A stretch of 64,000 nt of DNA from Streptomyces asiaticus (GTDB taxonomy: Bacteria > Actinomycetota > Actinomycetes > Streptomycetales > Streptomycetaceae). Made by a program: the position numbers and the translations under genes. Positions within the stretch are counted from its first letter, which is position 1; every line of letters starts with the position of its first letter. Location: assembly GCF_018138715.1 (NCBI RefSeq), contig NZ_JAGSHX010000006.1:9300001-9364000 (forward strand), given 5' to 3'. Below are positions 8,074-53,506 of this stretch, in pieces. The notes under the pieces are model-generated. The model searched no databases, was not told where the DNA came from, and worked only from the letters and a program-made list of their open reading frames with translations.

Positions 8074-8088
8074 GCAAGGGAGGTCACG

Positions 8089-9500: not shown

Positions 9501-9527
9501 ACCCCGTCCGTCCCTGAACCCCGTCCG
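9494..9527. repeat. 17-bp tandem direct repeat at the ferredoxin stop
   Basis: TCCCTGAACCCCGTCCG occurs twice in succession (9494-9510 and 9511-9527). The first copy carries the ferredoxin TGA. It looks like a small slippage duplication. The sequence just after it, GACCC-C-GGGTC (9531-9541), can form a short stem between the convergent ferredoxin and methyltransferase genes. Confidence 0.7.
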
Positions 9528-9539
9528 GAAGACCCCGGG

Positions 9540-10552: not shown

Positions 10553-10756
10553 TCAGGAGGCCGCGTTGTCCATGCGTTCGCGCAGGCTGCGCGGCCGCAT
10601 GTCGGTCCACACCTCGTCGACGTAGGCGGAGCACTCGTCCTTGGTGCCCTCCTTGCCGACGGTGTGCCAGCCCTCGGGCACCTCGAGGTCGGCGGGCCAC
10701 AGCGAGTACTGGTCCTCGTCGTTGCGCAGCACCTGGTAGCGGGCGTTGTCGTCCAT
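10553..10756 (-). CDS. MbtH-like protein (NRPS adenylation chaperone)
   Basis: A 67-residue MbtH-family protein. The family tryptophans and conserved blocks are present: QYSLWPADLEVPEGWHTVGKEG, C-x-AYVDEVWTDMRP and a SL..RM tail. MbtH proteins bind the N-terminal subdomain of adenylation domains and are needed for their folding or activity, so this one most likely serves one or more of the ten A domains encoded upstream. An AGGAGAG ribosome site precedes ATG 10756. It lies 63 bases after the MFS gene and is the last gene before the terminator, which fits a polycistronic unit. Confidence 0.95.
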   Translation of the reverse strand: MDDNARYQVLRNDEDQYSLWPADLEVPEGWHTVGKEGTKDECSAYVDEVWTDMRPRSLRERMDNAAS

Positions 10757-10819
10757 GGTCGTTCTCTCCTGTCGATGATCGGTCGGATCGGAAATGGCCG
10801 GTGAGGTGTCGGATGAGGG

Positions 10820-12070
10820 TCAGTCGGCCGGCCGCCCGGCCTCATGGCGGCGGGACAGCGTGCGCAGGGTCGGGCTGACGGTGGCCAGGACGGCCGCGGC
10901 GGCCATCCCCGCCGAGCAGAGCAGGATCGCCCGGTCGCCCGGCAGGGCCTGGGCGAGCGATCCGCCCAGCGCGGGACCCGCCGCGCCCGCGGCACCGCAG
11001 GCCAGGACGAGTGTGCTGGTGAGCCTGCCGCGCAGCTCGTCGGGGGTGCGCAGCAGCTGGTCGGTCATGATGGCGGTGTTCGCCGTGGGCGGGAACAGCG
11101 CCATCAGCGCGAACAGCACCCCGATGAGATAGCCGCTGTCCATCAGCACGGTGACCGGGGCGAGCACGGCCAGCGCCCAGAACACCGCGATGATGCCGCC
11201 GTACGGGCCCAGCCGACGGTGCAGTACGGGCGCCAGCAGCGCGCCCGCCACCCCGCCCACCCCGAGCATGGCGGCCATCACGCCGACCTCCCCGGAGGGC
11301 ACGCCCCGGGACTCGGCGAGCACGATGACGACGAGGTAGAAGGCGCTGAAGAACAGGTTGAGCACCACCGCGCACACCACCGTGACCCGGATCCGGCGCT
11401 CCCGCCACACCCACCGCAGCCCGGCCAGCGCCTCCCGGCCCAGGGGGCCCACCCCAGCGGCGGACCGCTCGCGCCGGGGCAGCCGGACGAAGAGCAGCGC
11501 GACGAAGGAGAGCGTATGTGTCACGGCGTCCACCAGGAAGGGCACGAACCGCCCCACGGCGAACAGGAACCCGCCGGTCGCGGTGCCCGCCAGCTGCCCC
11601 ATCGAGGCCCGTGCCGTGTTCATCGCCACCGCCGTGGGCAGATGCTCGTCCGCCACCAGTGCGGGCAGCGAAGCGCTCTCCGCCGGTTCGAAGAGCGCCG
11701 CGCTCGCCCCGGACACCGCCGCCACGACGACCATGTGCCAGACGGTGGCCGCACCGGCCCACACGGCGGCCACCAGACTGATGGCGGAGACCGCCTGGGC
11801 CGCCTCACAGCCCAGCATGATGGCCTTGCGGTCGTAGCGGTCCACCAGGACACCCGCCGGGAGCCCGGCCACCATCTGCGCGGCGGCGATGGTGCCCATG
11901 ACCAGACCGGAGGCGGCACCCGAGCCGGTGAGCGCGAGGACCAGCAGCGGAAACGCGATCAGCGCCGTGTGGAAGCCGAACTCCGAGAGCGCCTGACTGC
12001 CCCACAGCAGCCGGTAGTCCCGGTTGCGCGAGAGCGGAACCGGCGGCGACACCGGCGGGGCCGCGGTCAT
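10820..12070 (-). CDS. MFS exporter, likely efflux/self-resistance for the NRPS product
   Basis: A 416-residue membrane protein with about ten to twelve hydrophobic helices. The segment [18 protein letters not shown] between helices 2 and 3 is the major-facilitator motif A. Overall it resembles the MFS_3/EntS-type exporters found in NRPS and siderophore clusters. Its ATG (12070-12068) overlaps the NRPS stop (12069-12067) as ATGA, so it is translationally coupled to the synthetase. That coupling strongly suggests a role in exporting the peptide, although the direct evidence is only family and position. The C-terminal end ([18 protein letters not shown]) is cytosolic and basic. Confidence 0.88.
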
Positions 12071-15000
12071 ACGGTGCCCCGGCAGTCCCCGGCGATCCGG
12101 CGCAGCGCCTCCGCGAAGTCCCCGGCCACCGCCTCCACGGTCGCCCTCTCGTGCACATCGGGGCGGTAGCGCCAGGTGAAGCCGAGCCGGCCGTCCTGCA
12201 CCGCGCCCACCACCTCCAGCAGATGGGAACCGCCCTCGCGCGGATCGTGGTCCTGGCCGAACGAGCCGTGCTCGGCGTGGACCAGACCGCCCTGGGACTC
12301 GGCCGACCGGGCGTCCCACTGGCCCAGGTAGTTGAACACGATCTGCGGCCCGTCGCCGTGCCGGGACAGCCGCTCGCGCAGCCCGGGTGGGCCGAAGGCG
12401 CGCAGCGCACCGAAGCCGAAGCCGTTGCCGGGGACGGTCCGCAGCCGCCGCCGCACCGACTTGACCAGCCCCCGCCAGTCGGCCGGCCCGCCGTCGGGGA
12501 GGTCCGGCAGCTCGAAGGAGACCGGATACATGGTGGTGAACCAGCCCACCGTACGGGAGAGATCGACACCGTCCAGGACGTCCTCGCGGCCATGGCCCTC
12601 GAGCTCCACCGACACCCGCTCCTGGCCCGTCCAGCGGGACAGCGCCAGCGCGAGGGCGGCGAGCAGCACATCGTTGATGCGGGTGCGATAGGCCGTGGGC
12701 GCCGAGCGCAGCAGCGCCTCGGTGTCCCGCTCGTCGAGCTCGACCGGCACCGTACCGATCTCGGGCCCGGGCGTGGCCACCTGATGGTCGACCGGCAGCG
12801 GCCGGGCGTCGAGGGCCTCGCACCAGTGGTCGGCCTCGTGGTCCAGGCCGCCCTCGGCGACATGCTCCGCGAGCCGCCGCGCCCAGTCGCGGAAGGCGGT
12901 GGTCTTGGTGCCGAGGTCCACCGGTTCGCCCCGCACGCCCTGCTGATAGGCGATGTCCAGGTCGTCCAGCAGGATCCGCCAGGACACCCCGTCGATGACC
13001 AGGTGGTGCGCGGTCAGGAAGAGGAACGGCCGCCGGGCCTCGCCGAAGCGGAACAGCGCGGCCCGCAGCAGCGGCCCCCGGCCCAGGTCGAAGCCCGCGT
13101 GGAGCGCGTCGGCCGCCTTCTCCATCGCCGCGTCCGCCTCCCGGGCCGGCAGACCGGACAGGTCGTGGCGGTCCAGGACGGCGCCGTCGCCATCCGGCTC
13201 CGGGACGTGGCCGTGCCACTCGCCGCCGTGCTCGGTGAACCGGGTGCGCAGCGCGTCATGGTGGACCAGGAGCGCGGCCAGCGCCCCCTCCAGCGCCTTC
13301 TCGTCCGGCTCCTGGTGCAGCTCCAGCAGCGTGGACTGGTTGAAGTGGCGCGGATTCACGGTGTGGGTGGCGAAGAACCAGCGCTGGATCGGGGTGAGCG
13401 GAAGCGCCCCGGTCACCGGCTCCGCACGGCCCTCGTCCCGCTCGGTCGTGGCCACGGTGGCGAGCCCCGCCACCGTCTGATGGGTGAACAGGTCCTTGGT
13501 GGTCAGCCGCAGCCCGGCCTGCCGGACGCGGGAGACCACCTGGATGCTGAGGATGGAGTCCCCGCCGAGCTCGAAGAAGTTGTCCTCCACGCCCACCCGT
13601 TCCAGGCCGAGCACATCGGCCCAGATGTCCGCGATCCGGCGCTCCATCGGGGTGCGCGGGGCCACATGGCCCGCACCGGAGGTGACGGGCGCCGGGTCCG
13701 GGTCGGGCAGAGCCCGGCGGTCCACCTTGCCGTTGGCCGTGAGCGGAAGGGCATCCAGGGTGGCGAACGCCGACGGCACCATATGGGACGGAAGGGTCCG
13801 CCCCAGGACGTCGCGCAGCGAGGCGGCGGTCGGCGAGGTGCCCGGCGCCGGGACCACATAGCCCACCAGGCGCTTCCCACCGGAGGGCTGCTCCGGTGTC
13901 GGGGCGGTCTCCCGTACGGCGACCACCGCTTCCCGCACCTCAGGGCTGCGCCGCAGCGCGCTCTCCACCTCGCCGAGCTCGATCCGGAAGCCCCGCACCT
14001 TGACCTGGTCGTCGGCCCGGCCCAGGAATACGAGCTCACCGTCGCCGGTCCACCGCACCACATCGCCGGTGCGGTACATCCGGCCGCCCGCCGGGCCGAA
14101 CGGATCGGCCACGAACCGCGCGGCGGTCAGCCCCGGACGGCCGAGGTACCCCCGCGCCAGACCCGTGCCCGCCACATACAGCTCCCCGGCCACGCCCACC
14201 GGCACCGGGCGCAGCGCCTCGTCCAGTACGTAGACCCGGGTGTTCGGGATCGGCCGGCCGATCGGCGGCACCCCCGACCCGGCGGTCAGCGGCCCGGACC
14301 AGGTGCTCACCACCGTGGCCTCGGTCGGGCCGTAGGAGTTGACCATCCGGCGCCCCGGCGCCCAGCGGTCCACCAGCTCCGCGGAGCAGGCGTCGGCGCC
14401 GACGATCAGGGTCCGCAGATCCGGCAGCCCCGTCCGCCGGTCCGCCTCCTCCATGGTGGCCAGCGCGGCCGGGGGGATCAGCGCATGGGTGATCCGCTGC
14501 CCGCCGAGCACCTCGGCCAGCCGCTCGCCCAGCAGCGGGCCCTCGTCGCCGATCACCAGCGCCGCGCCACGGGGCAGCGAGACACACAGCTCCAGGACGG
14601 AGGCGTCGAAGCTGGGCGAGGAGAACTGGAGCACCCGGTCCCCGGCCCGCACGTCGTAGTGCGCGGCCGCGGCGGCCGAGAAACCGGCCAGCCCGGCATG
14701 GGTGACCACGACCGCCTTGGGCACACCGGTGGAGCCGGAGGTGTAGATGACATACGCCGGATGGTCCGGCGTCAGGCCACGGCGGGGCGGTGGCCCGGCG
14801 GGGCCCTCCTCGGCCCACACCGAGGCCGCCTCGTCGAGCACCACCGAGGGCGCGGCGTCCCGCAGCATGAACGCCACCCGCTCCTTCGGATAGCCGGGGT
14901 CGACCGGCAGGAACGCACCACCCGCCTTCGCCACGGCCAGCTGCGCCACCAGCATCTCCACCGAACGCGGCAGCACCAGCGCCACCAGCCGCTCCGGCCC

Positions 15001-18000
15001 CACGCCCCGGCCGATCAGCCGGTGTGCCAGCCGGTTCGCGGCCACCTCCAGCTCGGCGAAGGTGAGATCGCCCTTCCCGTACCGCACGGCGGTGGCGTCC
15101 GGCGAGACGGCCACCTGCCGTTCGAACAGCTCGCGCAGCGTGGCCGGCTCCACCTCCAGACGGGTGTCGTTCCACTCGACCAGGGTGCGCCGCAGCTCGG
15201 CCGGGGTGGTCAGCGGCAGCGCGCCCACCGGCCGCTCCGGATCCTCGGCGATCCCGGCGAGCAGCGTCCGCAGGGCCGTGCCCATCCGCTCCACCGTCGA
15301 GGCGTCGAACAGATCGGTGCTGTAGCCGATCAGCCCGCGCAGCAGACCCTCCTCGGCCTCGGCGAACTCGAAGGTGAGGTCGAAGGCGGCGGTCCGGGTG
15401 TCGAGTTCCACGTCCGCCAGCTCCAGACCGGGTAGCTCCAGCGCCTGCCCCGGGGCGTTCTGGAGCACCACCATCGCCTGGAACAGCGGTGTCCGGCTGG
15501 TGTCACGCACCGGCCGCACCTCGTCCACCACCCGCTCGAACGGCACTGCCTGATGGGCGAAGGCGTCCAGGACGGTGCCGCGCACCTCGGCCAGGAAGTC
15601 GCCGAAGCGGGCGTGCGGATCGACGGTGGAGCGCAGCACCAGGGTGTTGACGAAGAAGCCGATCAGCCGCTCCACCTCGGGGCGCTCCCGCCCCGAGGTG
15701 ACGGTGCCCACCGCGATGTCCCGCCCGCCCGACAGCCGCGCCAGCAGGATCTGGGCCGCCGCCACCAGCGTCATGAACAGGGTGGTGCCCCGCGCCTGCC
15801 CGAACTCCTTCAGGCGCGAGCTCACCCCGGCGGGCACCGCGAACTCCACGGCGGCGCCGCTCTTCGTCCGCACCGCCGGGCGGGGCCGGTCGGTGGGCAC
15901 CTCCAGCGCCGGCACATCGGCCAACTGCCGTGTCCAGTAGGCCAGTTCCTCATCCGCGCGCGGGGCGGTGAGTTCGGTCCGCTGCCAGGCGGCGAAGTCC
16001 GCGTAACTCACCGGGAGCGGGGGCAGCGCCGCGGGCTCACCGCTCAGCGCCGCCCGGTACAGCTCCCGCAGATCGCCGGTGAGCACACCGGTGGACCAGC
16101 CGTCCGTGATGATGTGGTGCAGCGTCAGGCTCAGCATGTGCTCCTGGGCGCCGAGCCGGATCAGCCCGGTGCGCAGCAGCGGGCCGCGCCGCAGATCGAA
16201 TGGGCGCGCCCGTTCGTACGCCAGCAGCTCCCGCAGTTCCACCTCCCGCTCGGCGGCGGGGAGATGGGACAGATCGTACGGATCGAGCCGGATCTCCCGG
16301 GGGTCGTGCACGATCTGCACCCCGCGGCCGTCCACCGCGTCGAAGGTGGTCCGCAGCGACTCGTGCCGGGCCACCAGCGCGGTCAGCGCCGCGCTGAGCG
16401 CGTCCACATCGAGGGCTCCCCGCATCCGCAGCGCCAGCGGGGTGATGTACTCGGCGCTGTCGGGGGCGAAGGAGTCCAGGAACCACAGCCGCTGCTGCGG
16501 ATAGGACAGCGGCAGCTCGCCGTCCCGGGCCACCGGTGTGATCGGGGCGGGCCGGTCCGTACCGCGGCCCTCCGCGCCGCCGAGCGCCTCGGCCAGGGCG
16601 GCGACGGTCGGATGGGTGAACACCAGGCGGGGCGACGGCTCCACCCCGAGCACCTCCCGCAGCCGTGAGGTGAGCCGGATGGAGAGGATCGAGTCGCCGC
16701 CGAGCTCGAAGAAGTTGTCCCCGGCGCCGACGCGTTCGACCTCCAGCACCTCGGCCCAGACCGCCGCCACGGCCTGCTCGAACCCCTCGCGCGGCGCCCG
16801 GTAGGGCGTGCGGCGGGTGTCCGGGGCGGGTGCGGGCAGCGCCGCGCGGTCCAGCTTCCCGGTGGGGCCGAGCGGCAGCGCGTCCAGCGGGACGACGGCG
16901 GACGGCACCATGTAGTCCGGCAGCCGCTCGGCCGCGTACGCCCGCAGCAGGTCGCCCTCCACCGGGGTGTCGCAGGCGGCCACCACATAGGCCACCAGCC
17001 GCTTGCCACCGGGACCGTCCGCGCGGGCCACCACCGCGACATCCGCCACCTCGGGATGCCCGGCCAGCACCCCCTCCACCTCGCCCGGCTCGATCCGGAA
17101 GCCACGGACCTTGACCTGGTCATCGGCGCGGCCGAGGAACTCCACCGTGCCGTCCGGGCGTCGCCGCGCCAGATCGCCGGTGCGGTACATCCGCTCCCCG
17201 GCCGGCCCATACGGATCGGGGAGGAACGCCGCGGCGGTCGGTCCTGGCCGGCCGAGGTAGCCACGCGCCACCCCCTCACCGGCGACGAAGAGCTCGCCGA
17301 CCACACCCGGCGGCACGATTCGCATCCTGGGGTCCAGGACATGGACCCGCATGTTGTCCAGCGGCCGGCCGATCGGCACCACCTCGGGCACCTCCTCGGC
17401 GCGGGACATCGGGAAGTACGTGGCGAAGGTCGTGGTCTCGGTCGGCCCGTAGCCGTCCACCACGGTCAGCCCGGGGCAGCGCTCCAGCACCCGGCGCACC
17501 GAGGCCGCGGGCACCACATCGCCGCCGGTCCACACCTCGCGCAGGCCGGTGAAGCAGTCCGGCGCGTCATGCGCCAGCAGCCGGAACAGCCCGGCGGTCA
17601 GCCAGAGCCCGGTCACCGCGTGCTCGGCCACCAGGCGGCGCACCGCGGCGGCGTCCAGCTCGCCCGATGTCACCACCACCCGGCCACCGTTCAGCAGCGG
17701 CACCCACATCTCGTAGGTGGCGGCGTCGAACGCCACCGGCGAGTGCAGCGGCACCCGCTCATGCCCGCCACCGCCGAAGGCACGGTCCAGGGCGAGCGCC
17801 ACCACATCGCGATGGCGCACCCCCACGGCCTTCGGCACACCGGTCGACCCGGAGGTGAACATCACATACGCCAGCTGGTCCCGGTGCACCGGCACCGCGG
17901 GCGCCGCCGGCTCGCCCTCCCGGGCGGCGGCCACCTCCTCCGGTGTCAGCACGACCGCGGCGCCCGCCTGGTCCAGCAGCGTCCGCCGCCGGTCGCGCGG

Positions 18001-21000
18001 GGCGCGGGCGTCCACCGGTACGTACACCCCACCGGCCCTGACCACCGCCAGCTGGGCCACGACCAGCTCAACCGACCGGTCCATGAGCAGCGCCACCCGG
18101 TCCTCGGGACGCACCCCGGACCGCAGCAGATGCCCCGCCAACCGCCCTGCCCACTCGTCGAGTCGGGCATAGCTGAGCGCGGTGGCGCCGTCGGTGACGG
18201 CGACGGCGTCCGGGTCCCGGCGGACCCGCTCGGCGAACAGCTCCGCGAGCGAACCCTCCGGCAGCGGCCGGGCGGTGGCATTCCACTCACCGGCCGCCTT
18301 CAGGCGCTCCGCCTCCGTCAGCAGCGGCAGCTCGTCCAGCGACCGCCCGGCGCCGTCCGCGATCCCGGTCAGCAGCGTCTCCAGATGGGCCGCCGCCCGC
18401 TCCACCGTGGCCGCGTCGAACAGCGCCGGATCGTAGGCGAGGTCGAAGCCCAGCCGGTCGCCGAGGTAGGCGCGCAGACACAGCGGGAAACTGGTGGAGT
18501 CCTCGGCCCGCACCTCCCGCACCCGGATCCCGGCACCGGCCGCCGACGCCTCGTCGAAGGGGTAGTTCTCGAACACCACCATGCTGTCGAAGAGCGCCTC
18601 ACCGGCCGGGACCGCGCTGAGGGCCTGGATCCGGGGAAGGGCGACGAAGTCGAAGCGGCGGGACTCGCTCTGCTGTTCCTGGAGCTCCCGCAGCCACGCC
18701 ACGACCTCACGGCCGCCCTCGGCCACCGCCCGGGTGGGGACCGTGTTGATGAACATGCCGACCATCGTCTCCACGCCCGGCAGCCCCTCGGGACGGCCCG
18801 AGACGGTGGTACCGAACACCACGTCGCGCACACCGCCGTACCGCGACAGCAGCAGCGCCCACGCGCCCTGCACCACCGTGTTGACCGTCAGCCCGCCGCC
18901 GCGCGCGGTCTTCCGCAGCCGGGCGGACACCTCCTCGGTCAGCTCCAGCCGGGTCAGCGCGGTCGAGGTGGTGCGATGCGCCTCCCGCGGCGGCCGGTCG
19001 TACGGCAGCGGTGTGCGGGTGCCGAACCCCGCCAGCACCTCGCGCCAATGCCGCTCCGCACGCTCCTGGTCCTGCTCACGCAGCCAGCGCAGGAAGTCCC
19101 GGAAGGCCCGGCGGGCGGGCGGCCGGGGTGAGCGCCCGGCCACGAGGGCCGCGTAGGTCTCGCACACCTCGGCGAAGACCTGGCCGGTGCTCCAGCCGTC
19201 GAGCATCAGATGGTGCGAGGTCCACACCAGTATGACCTCGTCATCGGGCAGCCAGGCCACCGCGATCCGGCTCAGCGGGGCCGAGGTCAGCTCCATCCCG
19301 GCGGCGCGGTCCTCGGCCAGCAGCCGCCGCAGCGCCTCCTCCCGCGCGGACGGCGTCAACTCCCGCCAGTCCAGCCGGACGGTGGGCAGGTCGGCCCGGC
19401 GGTGGACGACCTGGACCGGCTCGGCCAGACCCTCCCAGCGGACGGAGCTGCGCAACACCGGCGTACGGTCCACCACCCGCTGCCAGGCGGCCGCGAACGC
19501 GTCCGGGTCGGCGATCCCGCCGATCCGGAGGGCGATCTGGTCGAAGTAGGCGCCACCGGTGGCACCGCTGTCCACGAGGCCGTGGAAGAGCATGCCCGCC
19601 TGGAGCGGGGTCAGCGGATACACGTCCTCCACCGCGCCGCCGTCACCGGCGATCAGATCCACCTGCCGCCGGCCGAGTCGGGCGAGCGGGAAGTCGGACG
19701 GGGTGCGCCCGCCCGCGCCGGGCTCGGCGCAGTGCGCGACGATCTCCTTCAGCGCGGCCAGGCAGTCCTCCGCGACCCGGCGCACGGTGGCCTCGTCGTA
19801 CATCCGGGCCGGATAGCTCCAGCCCAGCTCAAGACGGCCGTCCTGGACCGCGCCTGTGACCTCCAGCAGACATGGGCGGGTCTCCCCGGGCGCGGCGTCC
19901 CGGCCGGTCACGGGGAGGGCCGCGCGGTACAGGCCCGGGGTGCTTTCGCCGGCCGCGGCCACGTCCCACTGGCCGTGGTAGTTGAAGACGATCTGCGGCG
20001 ACGGACCGCCCCGCAGTTCCCCGGCCGGGGAGCCCTCGGCGGCCAGATGGCGCAGCGCTCCGTGGCCGAGCCCGTGATGCGGAACGGCCCGCAGCTGCTC
20101 CTTGACGGACCGTAGGGTCTCGCGCCATCCCGCCCCGGCGTCGACGGCCAGCGCGAGCGGGTACTCGGCGGTGAACCAGCCGACCGTACGGGAGAGATCC
20201 AGGTCCTCGAAGAGATCCTCGCGGCCGTGCCCCTCCACGCCGATCAGCACCGTGTCCCCGCCGGTCCAGCGCGCCAGGCTCCGGCCGAGCGCGGCGAGCA
20301 GCACGTCGTTGATCCGCGTCCGGTAGACACCGGGGACCTGGCGCAGCAGCGCCTCGGTCTCGGCACGCCCGAGGACCGTGGTCACCGTGGCCGCCGTCTC
20401 ATGGGTGTTGGGGCCCTCGCGGTCGACGGGGAGCGCGGCGGGCGCGGAGCGCGCCACGCCCGTCCAGTACTCCAGGTCGCCGTCGAGCCCGCCGGAGCGC
20501 ACATGGTCCGCCAGCCGGGCGGCCCACTGGGTGAAGGCGCTGCTCGCCGGGGGCAGGGTGGGCGCGCCACCGGCGGCGGCGCCGCGGTAGGCGGTCTCCA
20601 GATCGCCGAGCAGGACCCGCCAGGAGACGCCGTCCACCACCAGATGGTGGGCGGTGAGCAGCAACTCGGGCGGCTGCCCGGGGTCGAAGGTGAACAGCAG
20701 CGCCCGCAGTACGGCCCCCTCGGCGATGTCCAGCCCCGTCTGGGCCGCGACCGTGGCGTTCCGTACGGCTTCGGCGCGTGCCGCGTCGTCCAGACCGGAC
20801 AGGTCGTGCCGCTCCAGGACACCGCCGGGGGCGGTGGACAGGACCTCCTGCCGCCACTGCCCGTCGACCACCAGGAAGCGGGTGCGCAGCGCGGCGTGGT
20901 GTGCCACCAGGGCGTCCACCGCCTGCCGCAGGGCGGCCTCGTCGAGGTCGCCGGTGAGCTCCAGCCGGTGGCTCATGGTGAAGTGGTGCCGGTCGCCGGG

Positions 21001-32070: not shown

Positions 32071-32081
32071 GTCGTCCTTCC

Positions 32082-41000: not shown

Positions 41001-44000
41001 CTCGAACCGCGTGCGCAGCGCGTCATGGTGGACCAGCAGCGCGTCGAGCGCCGCGCGCAGCGCGCGGAGGTCCGGTTCCCGCTGGAGCTCCACGACCACG
41101 GACTGGTTGAAGTGGCCGGGCCGGTCGGTCCGCATCCCGAAGAACCAGTGCTGGATCGGGGTGAGCGGCACCTCACCGGTCACCGGCCCGGTGTCGGCGG
41201 CGGGCGTGGCGGTGGGCGTGGTGACGGCGGCGAGCGAGGCGACGGTGGGATGCCGGAAGAGCTCCCGGGGGGTGAAGGCCAGCCCCGCCTGCCGGGCGCG
41301 GGAGGCCACCTGGATGCTGAGGATCGAATCCCCGCCCAGATGGAAGAAGTTGTCCTCGGCACCGATCCGCTCCCGGCCCAGCAGGGTGCCCCAGATCTCC
41401 GCGAGGGCCCGCTCGGTGTCGGTACGGGGCGCCACATACCCGGCCGTCCCGGCCGCCGCCGGGTCGGGCGCGGGCAGCCGGCGGCGATCCACCTTGCCGT
41501 TGCGGGTGAGCGGCAGCGCGTCGAGGGTGACGAACGCGGAAGGCACCATGTAGTCGGGCAGCAGCCCGCCCAGGAAGGACCGCAGCTCCCCGGCACCCGG
41601 CAGCTCGGCCCCGCCCACCGGCACGGCGTAGCCGGTCAGCAGCGTGCGGTCGGCCACCCGGGCGAGCGCGACGACCGCCTCCGCCACGGCCTCGTGGCGG
41701 GTCAGCGCGGCCTCGATCTCGCCCGGTTCGATGCGGAAGCCCCGGACCTTGAGCTGGTCGTCGGCGCGGCCCACGAAGCGCAGTTCACCGTCGTCGGTCC
41801 AGGCCACGATGTCCCCGGTGCGGTACATCCGGGAGCCGGACGGCCCGAACGGGTCGGCGAGGTACCGCTCGGCGGTGGCGCCGGGGCGGCCGTGGTAGCC
41901 GCGCGCCACTCCGGCGCCCGCGATGTACAACTCCCCTGGAATGCCCGGCGGTTGCGGCTGGAGGGCGCCATCGAGGACGTACGTCCGGGTGTTGTCCAGC
42001 GGGCGTCCGATGGGCAGCGAGCGGGGCAGTTCCTCCCCGGCGCGGAAGGGGCGCCGGGTGGCGAAGGTCGTGGTCTCGGTGGGCCCGTAACCGTCCATCA
42101 CCGTCAGGTCGGGGCAGGCCGCGAGCACCCGGCGCACCGCGCCCGGGGGCACCGCCTCACCGCCGGTCCACACCTCCCGGGCGCCGCGCAGACACTCCGG
42201 CGCCTCCTGCGCGAGCAGCCGGAACAGCCCGGCGGTCAGCCACAGGCAGCTCACCCCGTACTCGGCGATCGCCCGGCGCACGGTGTCCGCGTCCACGTCC
42301 CCGGCGGGCGCCAGCACGGCCCGGCCGCCGCGCAGCAGCGGCACCCACAGTTCGTACGTCGAGGCGTCGAACGCCTGGGGCGAGTGCACCAGCACCCGGT
42401 CGTGGTCCGCGAAGGCGCGGTCCGCGACGAGGGCGGTCACATCGCGGTGGCGCACCGCGACGCCCTTGGGGCGTCCGGTGGAGCCCGAAGTGAACATCAG
42501 ATACAGGGCGTTGTCGGGGGAGAGCGCCACGTTCGGCGGCTCCGACGGGCTGCCGTCGTCGCCGGACTCGGACTCGGGCCCGGGCTCGGGCCCGGACTCG
42601 GACTCCACGAGCAGGGTCCGCGCGGTGTCCGAGATGTCCGCCGCCATACGCTCCCAGGCGCGGTCGGTCAGCAGTACCTCCGCTCCCGCCTCCGCCACCA
42701 CGCTCCGCAGCCGGTCCCCGGGGGCGCGGGTGTCCAGCGGTACGTACACCCCGCCCGCCTTGACGACCGCCAGCAGCGCCACCACCAGCTCCACCGACCG
42801 GTCCATCAGCACGGCCACCGGGCGCTCCGGGCCGGCGCCCTGGCCGATGAGCCGGTGGGCCAGCCGGTTGGCGCGGGTGTCCAGCTCCCGGTAGCTCACC
42901 GGGCCCGCCTCGCCGTCCAGGGCCGTCGCGTCCGGCGCGGACCGCACCCGCTCGGCGAACAGCCCGGCCACCGTGGACTCGGGAAGCGGGACCGCGGTGT
43001 CGTTCCATTCCCGGAGCACCTGGTGGCGGCGGGCGGCGGTGAGCATCGGGAGGTGTGCGGGCGCCCGGTCCGGGGTGTCGGCCATGGCCGTCAGCAGCAC
43101 CGTCAGATGCTCCGCCATCCGCCGGGCGGTGGCCTCGTCGAACAGCGCCGGGTCGTAGCCGAGCCGCAGCGCCAGCTCCTCCCCGGGGTAGACCACCAGG
43201 GACAGCGGATAGTTGGTGGTCTCGACGCCGTTCAGCTCGCGCAGGGCGAGGCCGTGCGCGGCGGCGAGGTCCCCGCCGATCGGATAGTTCTCGAACACCA
43301 CGATGGAGTCGAAGAGGTTCACCCGCTCGGGCAGACCGGTCCAGGACCGCAGCCGGGTGAGCGGTACGAAGTCGAATCGCCGGTCCTCGGTCTGCCCGGA
43401 CTGCACCGCGCTCAGCCAGGACAGCAGGGTGGACCCGGCCGGCACCGTGAGGCGGGTCGGCACGGTGGTGATGAACAGCCCGTTCATCGTCTCCACACCC
43501 GGCAGCTCCGGCGGCCGTCCGGACACCGTGGTCCCGAAGACCACGTCCTCGCGGCCGGACTGGCGGGCCAGCAGCAGCGCCCAGGCGCCCTGCACCACCG
43601 TGTTCAGGGTGAGCCCCTCGTCCCGGGCCAGGGCCTGGAGCCGCCGGGTGGTGGCGGCGGGCAGGGTGACGCGGAGGTCCTCGGTGGACTCGGCGTGATG
43701 GGTCTCGGTGGGCTCCCGGTCGTACGGCAGCGGGGTGGGCTCGGTGAGATCGCCGAGCCGGGCCCGCCAGTGCTCCTCGGCCAGGGCCCCGTCGCGCTCC
43801 CGCAGCCAGGCCACATAGTCGCCGAACGGGCGGCGGCCGGGCAGCCCGGCGGCCATGGCCGCGCCGGACGCCCCGTCACGCGCCCGTGCGTGGCAGTGGA
43901 AGACGTCGGAGAGCACCTGGAACAGGCTCCAGCCGTCCAGGATCAGATGGTGGAACGTCCACACCACCTGGACCTCGGTCTCCGACAGCCGGGCCAGCGC

Positions 44001-47000
44001 CAGCCGCGTCAGCGGGGCGGCGGCCAGGTCCAGGCCGCGCTCCCGGTCCTCGGCGAGGAACCTCCGCAGCTCCTCCCGGCGCTCGTCCGGGCCGGACAGC
44101 TGCCGCCAGTCCAGCAGGGCCACCGGGATCCGGACCCCGCGCTCCACCACCTGGACCGGCTCCGGCACCCCCTCCCACACCGCCCGGGCGCGCAGCACCT
44201 GGGTGCGGTCGGCGACCTGCTGCCAGGCCGCGGCCAGCGCGGCCGGCTCCGGCACCCCGTCGAGGACGAAGGTGAGCTGCTGGAAGTAGGCCCGCCGATC
44301 GTCCTGCGCCAGGGCGTGGAACAGCATGCCCGCCTGGGTGGGGGTGAGCGGGTAGATGTCCTCCACAGCCCCGCCGTTCCCGGCCAGCCGGTCCACGGCG
44401 GCCTGGTCGAGGGCGGCGAGCGGGAAGTCGGACGGGGTGCGGCCGCCCGCGCCGGGCGCGCTGCCGTGCCGGGCGATCTCGCACAGCGCCGCGCGGAACT
44501 CCCCGGCGAGCCGGGCGACCGTCTCCTCCCGGTGCAGCCGCGCGGAGTAGAACCAGGTGAACTCCAGCTCGTCTCCCTCGACCCGGCCCACCACCTCCAG
44601 CGGATGCGGGCGCGGCGAGGCAAGATCGGCGTCCAGGGCCAGCTCCCGGTGCAGACCGCGGAAGAGCCCGTCGCCGCCACCCGGCGCCTCGAACCGGCCG
44701 AGGTAGTTGAAGCTGATCCCGGCCGTGGGGCCGTCGGGGAGGCCCGCGCCCTCGAGCAGATGGCGGCGCACCCCGTAGCCCAGACCACGCCGCGGTACGG
44801 CCCGCATCTGCTCCTTGACCGACTTGAGGACCTCGCCCCAGCCGCCGTCAGGGAGATCGAGCGCCACCGGGAAGCGGGTGGTGAACCAGCCGACCGTACG
44901 GGACAGATCCAGGTCCGCGAAGAGCTCCTCGCGGCCGTGGCCCTCCACGTCCACCGGCACCCGGGCGCGCCCGGTCCAGCGGCGCAGCACCCGGGCCAGC
45001 GCGCTCAGCAGCACATCGTTGACCTGTGTGCGGTAGACCTCGGGGAGCGTCTGGAGGAGTGCGGCGGTCTCCTCCGGGCCGAGCCGGACGGTGACCGACC
45101 GGGCCGAGGCGTAGGTGTTCTCCGCCTCGCCGGCCCCGTTCAGGTCCGTCGGCAGCGAGGGGTCGCAGGCCCCGGCCAGGCCGGTCCAGTACGCCTCCTC
45201 GTCGGCGAACCCGCCCTCCCCGGCATGGGTGTTGAGCCGCAGCGCCCAGCGGCGCAGCGGGGAGGACTTCGCGGGAAGCCCGGCGCCCTCGTCGCGGGCC
45301 GCCCGCCGGTAGGCGCTGTAGGCGCTGTCGAGATCCTCCAGGACGACGCGCCAGGACACCCCGTCCACCACCGCGTGATGGATGGTGAGGTGGAGGACCG
45401 GGTGCGGCCCGGCCTCCCGGTCGAGCACCGCCCGCATCAGCGGCCCCTCGGCCAGGTCGAAGCGGCCCAGATGCCCGGCGCCGGTGGTCTCGAGCGGTAC
45501 CCGGACGGCCGCCACGTCCTCGATCCGCTGGTACCAGCCGCCGTCCCGGCGGTGGAAGCGGGAGCGCAGGGCGTCATGGTGGTCCACCAGCGCGTCCAGG
45601 GCGTGCCGCAGCGCGTCCTCGTCCACGTCCTCGGGCAGCACCAGCGAGATGGTCTGGTTGAAGTGGCCGGCCCGCTCGGGGTCGGTGGTGAACAGCCAGT
45701 GCTGAATGGGGGTCAGCGGCAGCTCCCCGGTGGCCGTCCCGTCTCCCTCGGAGGTGGGCCCGGCCGGGGCCGTGGTGGTGTCCAGATGCAGGGCCAGCGC
45801 GGCGATCGTCTGATGGCGGTAGACATCGCGCGAGGTGACGGCGAGACCGGCCTGCCGTGCCTGGGAGACCAGCTGGATGCTGAGGATCGAATCGCCGCCG
45901 AGGGAGAAGAAGTTGTCCTCCATCCCCACGCGGTCCACCCGCAGGATCCGGGCCCAGACCGCCGCCAGGGTCCGCTCGGTCGCGGTCCGGGGCGCCACAT
46001 AGCCCGGTGCCGCGGCCTCGGCCCAGTCCGGCTCGGGGAGCCGGCCGCGGTCCAGCTTGCCGTTGGGGTTGAGCGGCATCCGCTCCAGGACGACGACGGA
46101 GGCGGGCACCATGTAGTCGGGCAGCGAGCGCCTCAGGAACCGCCGCAGCCCCGCCGGGTCGGGCTCCGAGCCCGCGGCGGCCACCACATAGGCGATCAGC
46201 CGCTGATGGCCGTCCGTCTCCCGGGCGACGGCCGCCGCCTCGGCGATGTCGGGGTGGCGCAGCAGCGCCGTCTCCACCTCGCCCAGCTCGATGCGGAAGC
46301 CGCGGATCTTCACCTGGTCATCGGCTCTGCCGACGTACTCCAGCTGGCCCTCGCCGTTCCAGCGGACCAGGTCACCGGTGCGGTACATCCGGCTGCCGGG
46401 CGGCCCGAAGGGGTCCGCGAGAAAGCGGTGGGCGGTCAGCCCGGGCCGCCGCAGATAGCCCCGGGCCAGGCCCTGCCCGCCCAGATAGAGCTCACCGGTC
46501 ACCCCGGGCGGCACCAGCCGCAGCGTCGGGTCCAGTACGTACGCGCGGGCGCCCGCGACCGGGCGGCCGATGGGCGGGGCCTGCGCGGGCGCCGGGCCGT
46601 CGCAGAACCAGCCGGTGGCGTACACCGTGGCCTCGGTCGGCCCGTACAGATTGGCGATCCGGCAGGACGGCATGGCCTCCCGGATGTTCCGTACGGTCTG
46701 GGCGGGCAGCGCCTCGCCCGCCAGTACGACGGTCCGGGCCCAGTCCGCCGGGCGGTCCTCGCCCAGCAGCCGGGAGAACACCGAGGGCACCCCGCTGAGC
46801 AGCCCCGTCGCCCGCGGCCGCCCCTCGGGATCGATGAGGGCGAGCAGGTCGCGCACCACCTCGACGCTGCCGCCGGCCAGCAGGGGGCAGAGGATCTCGA
46901 AGACCGACACATCGAAGTTGAGCGAGGTCGAGGCGACCACATCGGTCAGCCGCTCCCGCCCCAGCTCCGCCTCGGCCCAGGCCGCGAGCCCCGCCACACC

Positions 47001-50000
47001 GCGGTGGGTGACCACCACGCCCTTGGGCCGGCCGGTGGATCCGGAGGTGTAGATGACATAGGCGGGATGGGCCGGGACCAGCGGCCGGAGCCGCTCGGCG
47101 TCGGTGATGTCGCCGTCCGCGAGCCCGGCCAGCCGGGCGCGTACCTCCGGGTCGTCCAGCAGCAGCGGCGCGGCGTCCGCGGGCAGGCAGCCGGCCGCCC
47201 CGGTGGTGGTGAGGACGGTCGAGGGCGCGGCGTCCGCCAGCATGAACGCGATGCGCTCGGCAGGGTATCCGGGGTCCACCGGCAGATATCCGGCGCCCGC
47301 CTTGAGCACCGCCAACAGGACGACGACGAGTTCGGCCGAGCGGGGCAGGGCGAGGGCCACCAGCCGCTCGGGACCGGCCCCCCGGTCGATGAGCAGCCGC
47401 GCCAGCCGGTTGGCGCGCCGGTTCACCTCGTCGTAGGAGAGGCTGGTGTCCCCGCAGGTCACGGCGGTGGCGGTGGGCCGCCGCGCCACCTGGGCGGCGA
47501 ACAGGCCGGGCAGGGTGGCCTCGACCGCGGGCCGCTCCGGTCCGTTCCAGGCGTCGAGCATCGCATGCCACTCGGCGTCGGCCAGCATCCGCAGCTCGAT
47601 CAGGGTGGCGCCGGGGTCGGCCACCATGGCGGCCAGCAGCCGGTGCAGATGCCCGGCCATCCGCTCGATCGTGGCCGCGTCGAACAGATCGGAGTTGAAC
47701 TCCACGGTCAGCCCCAGCGAGCCGTCCTCGCGGGGCAGGAACTCCAGCACCAGATCGAACCGCGCGGCCGGGCGCGGCAGGGCGTGCTCGGTGATCCGCA
47801 CACCCCCCGCCTCCCGGCCGGGCACCATGGCGCTCTGCTGCACGACCAGCGCCTGCACCAGCGGATTGCGGCTGGGGTCGCGGCGCGGCGCCAGCTCCTC
47901 GACGACGCGCTCGAACGGCAGCCGGTCATGGCTGAAGGCGTCCAGCACCGTCTCGCGCATCGCGTCCAGGAACCGCTCGACCGTGCTGTCCCCGTCCACA
48001 TCGGCGCGCAGCACCAGGGTGTTGACGAAGAACCCGGCGACCGACTCCAGCTCCTTGCGGTGGCGCCCGGCGGTCACGGTGCCGAAGGCGATGTCCCGCT
48101 GGCCCGAGTAGCGGGAGAACAGCACCGCGACGGCGGCCGCGAGCAGGGTGAACTGCGTCGTGTCCCGCTCCCTGCCGAGCCGCGCCAGCCCCGCCACCAG
48201 CTCGGCGGGCAGCTCACGCCGGTGCACCGCGCCCGCCGTGGTGCGCACCGGCGGGCGCGGGCGGTCGGTGGGCAGCTCCAGCGTCTGCATCCCGGCCAGC
48301 CGGCCCCGCCAGTACGCCAGATCGGCGTCCTCACCCGCGGTGGCGGGACGGCTCCGCTCCCACACCGCGAAGTCCGGGTACTGGAGGGCGGGTTCGGGGA
48401 GCCCGGCATCGGTGCCGGACACCTCGGCGGCGTAGAGCGCGGCCAGTTCGCGCACCAGCAGCCCGACCGACCAGCCGTCGGTGACGATGTGGTGCTGCGC
48501 CAGCAGCAGGATGTGCTCCCCGTCGGCGAGCCGGATCAGCAGCGCCCTGGTCAGCGGGCCCTGTCTCAGGTCGTAGGGGCGGTTCAGCTCGGCGGTCAGC
48601 GTGGCGTCCAGCTCCTCGGCGCGCCGCCGCGCCGGATGCCCGCCGAGGTCGAGCCGCTCGAGCGGTACGGTGCCGTGCGCGGCCACCTGCTGCACCCCGT
48701 GCCCGTCCACGGTGGCGAAGGTGGTGCGCAGGGCGTCATGGCGGGCGGTGAGCCGGTCCAGCGCCCGGCGCAGCGCCGCCGCGTCCAGCGGGCCGTCGAG
48801 CCGCAGCCCGGCCCCCGTGTTGTACTCGGTTCCGCCCGAGGTCAGATCGTCCAGGAACCACAGCCGCCGCTGCGCGGAGGACAGCGGCAGCGGACGGTCG
48901 CGCGGCGCGGGCGGGATCGGCGCCTCGGGCGCCTCGGCCGCCGCGGCGGGCAGCTTGCCGGCCAGCCGCGCCACCGTCCTGGCGTCGAGCAGATCGCGCA
49001 GCGAGAGCTCCACGCCCAGCTCGGCCCGGATCCGGGTCAGCAGCCGCACCCCGAGGATGGAGTCGCCGCCCAGGCCCAGGAAGTCGTCCTCCACGCCCAC
49101 GGTGTCCACCGGCAGCACCTCGGACCAGATGCGGGCCAGGGCCTCCTCGGCGGGGGTGCGCGGGGCGATGTGGCGCGAGTCGCCGTCCGGCGCGGAGCGC
49201 GGGGCGGGCAGCGCCTGCCGGTCGATCTTGCGGTGCTGGGTGAGGGGGAACGCGTCCAGGACGACGTAGGCGGACGGCACCATATGGGCCGGCAGCACCC
49301 GGGCCACCGCGGCGCGCACCTCCGCGGCCTTCGGCGGGGTCCCGCCGCTCGGCGGCACCACATAGGCCACCAGCCGCTTCTGCCCGGGCTCGTCCTCCCG
49401 CACGGTGACCACGGCGGATCCCACCTGGGGATGGCGGGCCAACGCGGCCTCCACCTCGCCCAGTTCGATGCGGAAGCCGCGTATCTTGACCTGGTGGTCG
49501 GCCCGGCCGAGGAATTCCAGTTCGCCGTCGGTGTTCCAGCGGACCAGGTCACCGGTGCGGTACATCCGGGAGCCGGGCGGGCCGAACGGGCAGGCGGTGA
49601 ACCGCTCGGCGGTCAGCCCCGGCCGGTCGAGATAGCCGCGGGCCAGGCCCGCGCCGCTGATGCACAGCTCTCCCGTGACTCCGACCGGCACCTGCCGCGC
49701 CGCCTCGTCCAGCACGAACGTCCGGGTGTTGGGCAGCGGACGGCCGATCGGCGGGGCGCCGGTCCCCGCCGTCAGGGCGTCCGTCCAGGAGGCCACGACC
49801 GTGGCCTCGGTCGGGCCGTAGGAGTTCACCATCCGCCGCCCGGGCGCCCACAGGTCCACCAGATCGGCGGGGCAGGCCTCGGCGCCGACGATCAGCGTGC
49901 GGAAGTCGGGCAGCCCGTCGTGGAGCTCCTCCGGGGGCACGGTGGCGAGGGCCGCCGGGGGGATCAGGGCGTGGGTCACCCGCCTCTCCCGCAGGACCGC

Positions 50001-50750
50001 CGCCAGCTCGGCGCCCAGCAGCGGCCCCTCCGGGGGCACCACCAGCGCCGCCCCGGCCAGCAGGGACGAGCACAGCTCCAGCACGGAGGCGTCGAAACTC
50101 GGCGAGGAGAACTGCAACACCCGGTCGCCGGGCCGGACCCGGTAGTGGGCCGCCGTAGCGGCCGAGAAGTTCCCCAGACCGGCGTGCGGCACCAGCACGC
50201 CCTTGGGCACCCCCGTGGAGCCGGAGGTGTAGATGACATACGCGGGATGCTCGGGGCACAGCGGGCCGAGCAGCTCCCCCCGGCCGGGCGCGTGGTCCGG
50301 GCCCGCCCCGGCCCCCAGCTCCCGGATCCGCGCCGGGTCGTCCAGCACGGTCACCGGCCGGGCGTCGGCCAGCATCATGGCCCGGCGCTCCTCGGGGTGC
50401 GCGGGGTCGATCGGGAGGTACGCGCCGCCCGCCTTCGCCACCGCCAGCTCGGCCACCACCAGTTCGGCCGAGCGGGGCAGCACCAGCGCCACCACGCGCT
50501 CCGGTCCCACACCCTGCCCGATGAGATGGTGGGCCAGCCGGTTCGCCCAGCGCTCGACCTCTCCGAAGGACCACTCGCGCCCGTCCGCCACCAGGGCCGG
50601 CGCCGTGGGGGTGCGCTCCGCCCAGACGGCGAAGAGCTCGCCGAGCGGCGCGCGGGAGACGGCGCGGTCCGTGGCGTTCCACGCCTCCGGAGGGAGGGTC
50701 GGGACGGGGTGGGTCGCGGACACCGATGAGGTCTCGTAGTGGTCCGTCAT
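32082..50750 (-). CDS. Nonribosomal peptide synthetase, modules 1-5 (A-T, C-A-T-E, C-A-T-E, C-A-T-E, C-A-T)
   Basis: A 6222-residue NRPS that starts with an adenylation domain and no C or lipoinitiation domain, so it is the loading protein and the N-terminus of the peptide is a free amino acid. Phosphopantetheine serines lie near residues 564, 1621, 3142, 4663 and 6165. C2 is LCL-like ([12 protein letters not shown]); C3, C4 and C5 are DCL-like ([15 protein letters not shown] or [15 protein letters not shown]), exactly as expected after the E domains of modules 2-4. All C domains have HHxxxDGWS. The C-terminus after T5 is a helix plus acidic tail ([21 protein letters not shown]), a candidate docking element. 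Its stop precedes the second NRPS start by 11 bases. A hairpin lies 49-73 bases upstream of the ATG. Confidence 0.97.
32085..35224 (-). other. NRPS module 5: C(DCL)-A-T, hydrophobic residue
   Basis: C5 [10 protein letters not shown]5 FDASVLEL, code D-A-L-L-I-G-A-V-V-(K), like A1 and A10. Its hinge motif reads [15 protein letters not shown], with His for the usual Arg in K(I/V)RG. T5 is GGDSVRSL near 32,257. No E domain; next is the LCL C6 on the other protein. Confidence 0.78.
35225..39780 (-). other. NRPS module 4: C(DCL)-A-T-E, small residue (D)
   Basis: C4 [10 protein letters not shown]4 FDVSVFEIL, code D-V-F-A-V-A-I-V-Y-(K), resembling small-residue (Ala-type) pockets such as DLFNNALTYK. 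A3 core reads [11 protein letters not shown] (His for Tyr). T4 near 36,763. The E4 first motif is [10 protein letters not shown] (Ala for Gly). Confidence 0.75.
39781..44379 (-). other. NRPS module 3: C(DCL)-A-T-E, predicted D-Val
   Basis: C3 [10 protein letters not shown]3 FDASTYELW with code D-A-Y-W-W-G-G-T-F-(K), identical to A9, Val-type. An acidic low-complexity insertion lies before its TSGSTG motif (42,562-42,607). T3 near 41,326; E3 [23 protein letters not shown]. Confidence 0.8.
44380..48929 (-). other. NRPS module 2: C(LCL)-A-T-E, small residue (D)
   Basis: C2 [10 protein letters not shown]2 FDVSVFEIL with code D-V-F-G-V-A-L-V-Y-(K), close to A4 and to Ala-type pockets. T2 near 45,889; E2 [23 protein letters not shown]. 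Confidence 0.77.
48930..50750 (-). other. NRPS module 1: A-T loading module, hydrophobic residue (L)
   Basis: A1 (about residues 35-540) with [37 protein letters not shown]: code D-A-L-L-I-G-S-V-V-(K), identical to A10. T1 GGDSILGV near 49,060. No C or E domain, so the first residue should remain L with a free amine, the nucleophile needed for head-to-tail cyclisation. Confidence 0.82.
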
Positions 50751-50798
50751 GGTGGGTTGTGGCCCTTCAGAGCGGTTGAACGGGCGGATATGGGGGGC

Positions 50799-50823
50799 GG
50801 CTCGGGCCGGCCGGCGCCGAGCC
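50799..50823 (-). promoter_or_regulatory. Hairpin in the leader between PBP-TE and NRPS genes
   Basis: GGCTCGG (50799-50805) and CCGAGCC (50817-50823) around an 11-base GC-rich loop that itself contains CCGGCCGG. It lies in the 136-base gap between the PBP-TE stop and the first NRPS start. It could attenuate, process or stabilise the transcript. Function is inferred only from structure. Confidence 0.35.
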
Positions 50824-50886
50824 GGTGCGCCCGCGCCCGGCCGGGGGAGATGTGGGGAGAACGGCCGTGTGCGGGGCGGTGGGACC

Positions 50887-52248
50887 TCAGACCAGGGCGC
50901 TCTTACGGGCCATCCGGCCCGAGAGCTGGATCCGGTCCACGGCGCCGGTCCGCGGATCGCGGACGAAGCGTCCGCCGGGGAGCCGGCGTCCGGATGAGGG
51001 GTCCACCAGATCGCAGGTGAGGTCCTCGTGGCAGACCAGCGGCGCGGGGAGGTCGCCGTCCACGGACAGGGCGAGACCGCCGCCGTCGCCGATGGTCACC
51101 TGGTACTCGATGTCGCCGTTGAGGTAGATCCCGGTGCACTGCGAGGTCGCGGCCATGGGGGTGGCCCGGCGCCGTGGGGTGGGTGTGGGGGGCACCCGGA
51201 CGCCGGTGATCTCGCCGAGGACATCGGTCAGTTCGTGCCACAGCTCGGTGCCGGTGCCCGCGTTGGCGGTGAAGCCGACCACCGTGCCCGTGGCGGGATC
51301 GGCCCGCAGGAAGCAGGAGGTGCCCTGGGCGTTGCCGTCGTGCCCGAACCACAGGGTGTCGCCGTGCCGGAAGAGCCCCCAGCCCAGGCCCCAGCCGTCG
51401 GCCAGCACACCGGGGTCGGCGCCGGGCACCGGGCGGCGCATCTCCTCCGCGAGCCCGCGGGGCAGCGATCCCGCGGCGCCGTCGCCGAGATGGGCCCGGC
51501 CCAGCGCCACCAGATCGAGGGCACTGGCTCTCAGCGCGCCGGCCGCGGCCTCGGCGGGGGCGAGGTTCTGCCGCACCGGACGCGTTCTGCCGGTGGCCTT
51601 GTTGGCCGAGTGGCCGCGCGCCGTGGGCCGGTGCGGGGCTCCGGCCGTGCCGATGAAGGACGGCACGGTGCCCAGCGGATCGAGCAGCACGGACCGCATG
51701 GCCTCCTGCCAGCTCATCCCGGTGACCGTCTCGATCAGCCGGCCGGCGGCCACGAAGCCCGCGTTGGAGTAGGAGAAGTCCGTCCCCGGGGGCATCACCA
51801 GGGTGCGGTCGGTGCAGTGGTCCAGCAGATAGCGCGCGGCGGTCAGCGAGGCCACCTGGTCGGAGTCGGGCCCGGACGGAAGCCCCGCGGTGTGGCTGAG
51901 CACCTGGCGCACCGTGCACGGCGGACCGGCCCGCCGCAGCTCCGGCACATGGTCGCCGAGCCGGTCGTCCAGCTCCACATCGCCGTCCGCCACCAGGAGC
52001 ATCACCACGGTCGCGGTGTACGCCTTGGTGATGGAGCCGATGGGCACGGCCGCGTCGGCGGTGCACGGCTCGCCGGTGTCCACGTCCAGGACACCGGTCT
52101 CCACGGCGAGGGTCATTCCGCCGTAGTGCACGGCGAGTTGGGCTCCTGGCACCTGATGGGCGCGGGCCAGGGCGGTCAGTCGGTCCTCGAGGACGCGGCG
52201 TATCTTCGACCGCTCCTCGGCGGACGGGGCCGGGGTCGTACGTGACAC
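50887..52248 (-). CDS. Stand-alone PBP-type thioesterase / peptide macrocyclase (SurE family)
   Basis: A 453-residue serine hydrolase of the class C beta-lactamase/penicillin-binding-protein fold. GTG 52248 was chosen because AAGGAG lies about 6 bases upstream. Active-site motifs: S72-I-T-K75 (nucleophile and base), Y160-S-N162, and H303-D-G. A C-terminal beta-rich (lipocalin-like) region follows. There is no signal peptide or membrane anchor, unlike true cell-wall PBPs, so it acts in the cytosol. Position just upstream of an NRPS pair that lacks a cis thioesterase and ends in an E domain matches SurE, DsaJ and Ulm16, which release and head-to-tail cyclise peptidyl thioesters carrying a C-terminal D-residue. 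A beta-lactamase-like resistance or esterase role is the alternative; context makes it less likely. Confidence 0.88.
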
Positions 52249-52292
52249 GGTGCACTCCTTGCCGGGGGACGGGACGGGCGACGGGGGCCGGG

Positions 52293-53492: not shown

Positions 53493-53506
53493 GGACAAGA
53501 CTCCCC

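Follow-up and report, generated by a model that had tools for sequence, protein, structure and literature searches.

A conserved ten-module nonribosomal peptide synthetase line of Streptomyces asiaticus, predicted to make a decapeptide that a SurE-type thioesterase probably cyclises

The 64,000-nucleotide stretch of the Streptomyces asiaticus genome analysed here (the window; contig NZ_JAGSHX010000006.1, positions 9,300,001 to 9,364,000) encodes a nonribosomal peptide synthetase (NRPS) line of ten modules in two proteins, which we predict makes a decapeptide that is probably released head-to-tail by a stand-alone, SurE-type thioesterase (TE) of the penicillin-binding-protein (PBP) type acting in trans. 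The line is real, complete and conserved, and a relative is already in print as a predicted, partly observed decapeptide. There are also published precedents for this type of machine, for a ten-residue ring made by a PBP-type TE and for a peptide closely related to the predicted one; the conserved line makes the ring-versus-linear question for ten-residue substrates of such enzymes directly testable. Five genes, tightly packed on the minus strand from 52296 down to 10553, form the core of the cluster; modules are given as adenylation (A), thiolation (T), condensation (C) and epimerization (E) domains, and MFS stands for major facilitator superfamily:

50887..52296, minus strand: stand-alone PBP-type thioesterase (cyclase), PF00144 at 5.8e-59
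32082..50750, minus strand: NRPS-A, 6222 aa, modules 1-5 (A-T / C-A-T-E / C-A-T-E / C-A-T-E / C-A-T)
12067..32085, minus strand: NRPS-B, 6672 aa, modules 6-10 (C-A-T-E / C-A-T / C-A-T-E / C-A-T / C-A-T-E)
10820..12070, minus strand: MFS exporter, PF05977 at 2.3e-29 and PF07690 at 4.3e-28
10553..10756, minus strand: MbtH-like protein, PF03621 at 8e-23

Domain organization of the assembly line

Both NRPS frames run uninterrupted over their full length. Pfam, run on ten module-sized pieces, places AMP-binding, AMP-binding_C and PP-binding domains in every module, together with two Condensation-type domains in modules 2, 3, 4, 6, 8 and 10, one in modules 5, 7 and 9, and none in module 1. Motifs divide the Condensation-type domains into nine C domains (HHxxxDGWS) and six E domains (HHxxxD[GAS]VSW), the latter being the second such domain of modules 2, 3, 4, 6, 8 and 10. 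As expected, the C-domain motif varies with the preceding module: the five C domains after E-containing modules read WTxHHxxLDGWS, while the four after modules without E read HHIVTDGWS or HHIITDGWS. NRPS-B finishes with an E domain, and neither Pfam nor motifs revealed a cis TE. A preliminary description, drawn from the letters of the window, had proposed ten modules in two proteins with a bare A-T loading module, an L start and a D C-terminal residue, a trans PBP-type TE in place of a cis TE, and MFS and MbtH genes at the positions given above; the Pfam matches and motifs bear out this layout throughout.

The thioesterase

The two best PDB matches of the window TE are SurE (6KSU, 3.5e-72) and Ulm16 (8FEK, 9.8e-60), the third being far weaker (7.2e-30). 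It is 40% identical to SurE of S. albidoflavus, and the SurE alignment covers residues 36-468 of the 471-residue chain, reaching through the C-terminal domain; judged on sequence, both a SurE-like N-terminal and a C-terminal lipocalin-like domain are present. The catalytic Ser, Lys, Tyr, Asn and His of SurE are all conserved in the alignment, as they are in the 22 other rows of this TE branch (22/22, from 17 different genomes). Elsewhere the set is less constant, with Asn missing in outgroup rows L058, L060, L061 and L066, and, among other PBP-type TEs, Asp at the Asn column in L040-L042 and His missing in L057. The Gly of the pocket for a C-terminal D residue also appears to be retained, given a presumed numbering offset.

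In one review, Gly235 of this pocket is linked to acceptance of a C-terminal D residue, PBP-type TEs are assigned NRPS substrates with an L start and a D end, and those reviewed make head-to-tail amides only (PMC11735501). NRPS partners of SurE-family TEs lack a TE of their own, begin with an L residue and finish with E or with Gly; in the window, a TE-less NRPS line lies alongside the TE, starts with an L residue and ends in E. Module 1 carries no E domain, module 10 carries one, and the module 10 code is that of a hydrophobic residue; the line therefore fits the rule.

From the genes, their domains and order, the catalytic residues and their conservation, we infer the following route for substrates, ring closure and export. 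Module 1 would load an L residue whose amine is free, the chain would pass from NRPS-A to NRPS-B after residue 5, and the six E domains would give D residues at positions 2, 3, 4, 6, 8 and 10. As the line has no TE in cis, the peptidyl thioester with its D terminus would pass from T10 to the serine of the PBP-type TE, and attack by the N-terminal amine would close a head-to-tail macrolactam. The MbtH-like protein would aid the A domains, and the MFS protein would export the peptide.

In a tree of 50 TE sequences (36 stretches from named loci, 12 relatives, SurE and the window TE, five of the relatives repeating genomes of the loci), the window TE family forms one branch separate from SurE with two sub-branches, as read from a tree without branch support values. 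The host genome holds no second close TE copy: identity does not exceed 37% in any of the 13 further matches listed at E<=1e-5. At one further locus, L052 of S. albidoflavus NRRL B-1271, a PBP-type TE other than SurE stands by a separate NRPS in a strain that also has the surugamide cluster; three SurE stretches are missing from this locus, and one of them was found on contig C30 of the same genome.

Distribution and conservation

The TE was searched for in 392 Streptomyces genomes, the host's own included, at E<=1e-80, and was found in 47. The best match has at least 56% identity in 43 of these (own included) and 44-49% in the other four, so that this type of TE occurs in about one in nine of the Streptomyces species sampled (43/392). 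Identity reaches 96% in S. endocoffeicus, S. violaceusniger NBRC 13459, S. iranensis and S. rugosispiralis, 94% in S. antioxidans, 92% in S. samsunensis, 90% in S. sp. S465 and S. niphimycinicus, 89% in S. hygroscopicus subsp. hygroscopicus, and 81% in S. himastatinicus and S. coffeae.

Whole clusters were read in 12 relatives (five with a TE at 79-96% identity, seven at 56-65%), picked for contig quality and spread and not at random; in genomes beyond these, only the TE or its close surroundings were covered. All 12 fully read clusters hold the same ten-module line: NRPS-A and NRPS-B are colinear, with the same module order and 63-96% identity (the aligned piece reported for NRPS-B of G374 covers only residues 3-4819), the TE lies beside the NRPS genes, and the last module carries E. 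Of the 72 places where an E motif is expected, 71 have it; the exception is module 2 of G002, where the spacing is as usual. A-domain codes, read at 119 of 120 positions (module 1 of G007 missing), are nearly invariant. The one clear swap is in module 4 of G361 (L153-L155), where a code of the module 5 type stands in place of one of the Ala type, likely through an A-domain replacement within an otherwise conserved line. An MbtH gene follows NRPS-B in 12/12 clusters, and an MFS gene lies behind NRPS-B in all five near relatives (80-97% identity) and in G007 (38%), with none found at E<=1e-15 in the other six. Frames are broken in two drafts, in both NRPS genes of S. violaceusniger (G001) and in NRPS-B of S. 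himastatinicus (G008), possibly through assembly errors.

The TE looks like a dedicated enzyme. A cyclase tuned to decapeptides, if that is what it is, would be a useful tool for cyclic peptide synthesis.

Substrate codes and the predicted peptide

A-domain codes were read at the Stachelhaus positions:

module 1: DALLIGSVVK
module 2: DVFSVALVYK
module 3: DAYWWGGTFK
module 4: DVFSVAIVYK
module 5: DALLIGAVVK
module 6: DTLDMGFIDK
module 7: DFWSVGMVHK
module 8: DTWDMGFVDK
module 9: DAYWWGGTFK
module 10: DALLIGSVVK

Labels for comparison came from the surugamide cluster of S. albidoflavus NRRL B-1271, recognised by an exact SurE stretch, whose product is printed as cyclo-[L-Ile-D-Ala-L-Ile-D-allo-L-Lys-L-Ile-D-Phe-D-Leu] (PMC11012974). 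The code of SurA module 2 (D-Ala), DVFSVAIVYK, is identical to that of module 4 and matches module 2 at 9/10 positions. On contig C45 the two final modules, which were taken as the SurD end because both carry E, have the codes DAWTVAAVCK (D-Phe) and DALLFGAVVK (D-Leu); the D-Leu code agrees with modules 1 and 10 at 8/10 positions and with module 5 at 9/10. A single source supplies the Val and Thr labels: it assigns DAYWWGGTFK to Val, in friulimicin, and DFWNVGMVHK to Thr (PMC9113097). Modules 3 and 9 are identical to the Val code, and module 7 matches the Thr code at 9/10 positions. A literature search for the module codes themselves returned an exact match for DAYWWGGTFK (Val) only.

On these labelled codes, Ala at positions 2 and 4, Val at 3 and 9 and Thr at 7 are therefore well supported predictions, and Leu is the most likely residue at 1, 5 and 10. 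Modules 6 and 8 have acidic pocket residues, as in codes for basic substrates, in keeping with the two basic residues of the preliminary description. D-ornithine (D-Orn) is a moderately supported assignment at both, resting on a published relative from Streptomyces sp. H-KF8; Arg or Lys might be loaded there instead, and capreomycidine and enduracididine were weighed as further candidates. The predicted core reads Leu-D-Ala-D-Val-D-Ala-Leu-D-Orn-Thr-D-Orn-Val-D-Leu. A code one letter off that of module 6, DTLDMGFVDK, occurs in the module right before the TE at six other actinobacterial PBP-type TE loci (L031, L037, L044, L047, L053 and L054).

Comparison with published systems

The nearest published design is that of biosynthetic gene cluster (BGC) 1.8 of the marine strain Streptomyces sp. 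H-KF8, a ten-module NRPS cluster whose partly characterised product is putatively a cyclic glycodecapeptide, with 8/10 predicted residues said to be confirmed by MALDI-TOF tandem mass spectrometry (MS/MS) and D-Orn placed at 6 and 8 from MS/MS and PRISM (PMC10788856). Peptides modelled on this product were synthesised, and 6/8 were antimicrobial (PMC10788856). Both clusters have two NRPS genes, ten A domains (one of them bare), six E domains and a contiguous TE, and both give D residues at 2, 3, 4, 6, 8 and 10 with predicted Ala2, Val3, Ala4, basic residues at 6 and 8, and Val9, a likeness in architecture and residues from which homology is inferred. The H-KF8 authors expect nitration and sugar decoration, whereas no such genes were recognised among the window genes scanned. 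The 2017 genome paper on H-KF8 and a 2025 follow-up, in the parts drawn on here, add no product structure. The preliminary description had called the product a candidate new cyclic decapeptide; its novelty is weakened by BGC 1.8, which shares design, predicted core and D pattern (PMC10788856). In the literature searched, which did not include subscription papers or MIBiG, we found no fully established product for a line of the window's type, and we do not claim that none is in print.

The preliminary description also considered a ten-residue ring unusual, which needs qualifying: cyclosurugamide F, a product of SurE, is a cyclic decapeptide (PMC11735501, PMC7459860). The surugamide F system (SurB, SurC and SurE) resembles the window line in that two NRPSs without a TE in cis assemble ten residues with a D end, and a PBP-type TE acts in trans. 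Surugamide F, however, has an N-terminal Trp and a beta-amino acid at module 5, and at modules 1 and 5 the window line has codes unlike those of its sur counterparts; SurE acts for an octapeptide line as well, and it falls in a different tree branch from the window TE. PBP-type TEs also release the head-to-tail cyclic peptides of the desotamide family (desotamide, wollamide, ulleungmycin and noursamycin), which are mostly hexapeptides of other residues (PMC7459860).

Weighing ring closure and residue assignments

Several observations count against a cyclic decapeptide of the predicted composition. In overall identity, modules 1, 5 and 10 are about equally close to the labelled Phe and the labelled Leu domains, and a Tyr code from the literature resembles them too; an aromatic residue is therefore possible at positions 1, 5 and 10. 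The comparison set offers no labelled code to match those of modules 6 and 8, and Asn replaces Asp278 in module 8 of 7/12 relatives. The H-KF8 product was read with X1, Trp5 and Tyr10 (PMC10788856); in the window, the module 5 code agrees with the labelled Leu code at 9/10 positions and the module 10 code at 8/10, a likeness that is compatible with aromatic residues as well. Its parent ion, at m/z 1448.752, is matched by no plain core that we computed (at most 1223.657), so decorations or another residue set must be assumed. The calculated [M+H]+ values are 1009.677 for the cyclic Leu/Orn core and 1027.687 for its linear acid, 1093.720 and 1037.708 for the cyclic forms with Arg or Lys, respectively, in place of Orn, and 1205.647 for a cyclic Trp/Trp/Tyr form. 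As to release, SurE gave cyclosurugamide F in one laboratory and mostly linear surugamide F in another, and the ring form was found in extracts only in traces, surugamide F being otherwise linear (PMC7459860).

This last record raises the alternative that the same decapeptide leaves mainly as a linear acid, the PBP-type TE hydrolysing instead of cyclising, as happens with surugamide F, which was isolated as a linear decapeptide (PMC7459860, PMC9810689) and was mainly linear with SurE in one group's hands. The window TE, however, adjoins a single assembly line, its branch goes with ten-module lines in 12/12 whole clusters and, unlike SurE, it has no known octapeptide to which it would be tuned; an L start and a D end also suit cyclisation (PMC11735501). 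Setting the fit to the PBP-type TE rule against the fate of surugamide F, we therefore regard head-to-tail ring closure as probable and mainly linear release as unlikely, but to be reckoned with.

We hold two further alternatives to be much less credible. Module 1 might take a non-amino acid, or a residue that is later blocked, so that a ring would form via a side chain (for example that of Thr7) or not at all; the H-KF8 authors considered that X1 is perhaps not an amino acid, as it was unseen in MS/MS (PMC10788856). Such a blocked start seems improbable here: the module 1 code equals that of module 10 (DALLIGSVVK), with 73% identity between the two, Pfam finds no starter C domain in module 1, the scan of window genes turned up neither an acyl-ligase nor a carrier gene, and the PBP-type TEs reviewed yield only head-to-tail amides (PMC11735501).

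The least credible is a piperazate peptide, with piperazic acid loaded by modules 2 and 4, a candidate raised by the first six code letters. PF04299, the piperazate-synthase family that includes KtzT, has no member in the host's own genome or in S. violaceusniger G001, while in S. himastatinicus, used as a control, a member lies close to the hmt NRPS genes. Two PF04299 matches were found in S. malaysiense (G007), another carrier of the line, both on contigs other than that of the cluster. The codes of modules 2 and 4 do share 7/10 positions with HmtL-A1, DVFSVAAYAK (PMC9866976, PMC5031334), but that of module 4 is identical to the code of an Ala loader, SurA module 2. With this identity and no PF04299 member in the genome, piperazic acid was dropped.

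An amine-oxidase-like gene coupled to the thioesterase

Upstream of the TE lie two genes that may belong to the same unit:

52293..53609, minus strand: copper-amine-oxidase-like protein with a signal-peptide-like start (judged by eye), PF01179 at 3e-42
53616..54431, minus strand: unknown protein whose N-terminus looks, by eye, like a membrane anchor; its gene is the next one upstream of the amine-oxidase-like gene; no match in a Pfam scan

The TE may start at ATG 52296 (469 aa) or GTG 52248 (453 aa); its nearest homologue (P0001) has 469 aa, and ATG 52296 overlaps the stop codon of the amine-oxidase-like gene (ATGA). NRPS-A and NRPS-B overlap by 4 bases, and the NRPS-B stop is overlapped by the MFS start. 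Because of these overlaps, one transcription unit may span from about 54431 to 10553. The 53616..54431 gene, a homologue of which lies at the same place in 12/14 near loci (not in L018 or L029), is possibly its first gene.

The amine-oxidase-like gene is present upstream of the TE in all 14 near loci (L015-L027 and L029, the match in L018 being confined to the end of the gene) and in none of 20 distant loci (L103-L122), within a reach of about 1.5 kb upstream of the TE. Short copper-amine-oxidase-like proteins are common in Streptomyces, with a match at E<=1e-60 in 180/392 genomes. Among the matches listed, however, copies of at least 81% identity occur in 10/392 genomes, the same ten that have a TE of at least 81%, and every other match has at most 50%. 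This paralogue therefore goes together with clusters of this type in the S. violaceusniger clade, and its coupling to the TE there is possibly a new feature. The host genome has a second amine-oxidase-like copy elsewhere (G000:C6:1983795-1985057).

The protein conserves the Tyr of the cofactor motif and the three copper-binding His residues, whereas Trp precedes this Tyr (Asn in the E. coli enzyme) and a residue other than Asp stands where the E. coli enzyme has its catalytic Asp. An active oxidase is therefore doubtful. Trp precedes the cofactor Tyr in all 17 copies aligned there (13 cluster copies and four others), and the short family as a whole may be catalytically unusual. One could picture the paralogue, translationally coupled to the cyclase, acting outside the membrane to oxidise one or both D-Orn side-chain amines of the exported peptide to an aldehyde, which would fold back into a cyclic aminal or a crosslink. 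We rate this as a long shot, and we know of no precedent for such a step in NRPS tailoring, although no literature search was aimed at one.

In 19 of the 20 distant loci a cytochrome P450 gene lies directly upstream of the TE, its product being 34-38% identical to the window's P450; there is none beside the window TE. A GNAT acetyltransferase-like gene (by eye) lies downstream of MbtH in four of the 12 clusters (G007, G304, G358 and G374). The P450 genes of the distant sub-type and the GNAT-like genes perhaps serve alternative tailoring or self-protection. That one clade has the amine-oxidase-like gene and the other the P450 suggests that the two sub-types tailor a shared core in different ways.

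Other genes in the window

The MFS exporter also matched the TIGR00900 and EntS-like models, below the NCBI cut-offs. Beyond MbtH, genes for a P450, a methyltransferase and a TetR protein occupy 7363-10403; we weighed whether they belong to the cluster and left them out of it, as they follow MbtH only in the three nearest of the 12 relatives (G002, G003 and G010). Further along, a plus-strand frame of 1020 aa (4279-7341) joins OAA-family lectin, F5/8 type C and SMI1/KNR4 (SUKH-1) domains, an odd combination also seen in G002 and G010, and overlaps the end of a frame for an FAD oxidoreductase. The host assembly comprises 11.88 Mb in 6 contigs with six 16S genes. Another plus-strand frame of the window, at 2467-3162, has an IS605 OrfB-type helix-turn-helix domain and is perhaps a transposase remnant.

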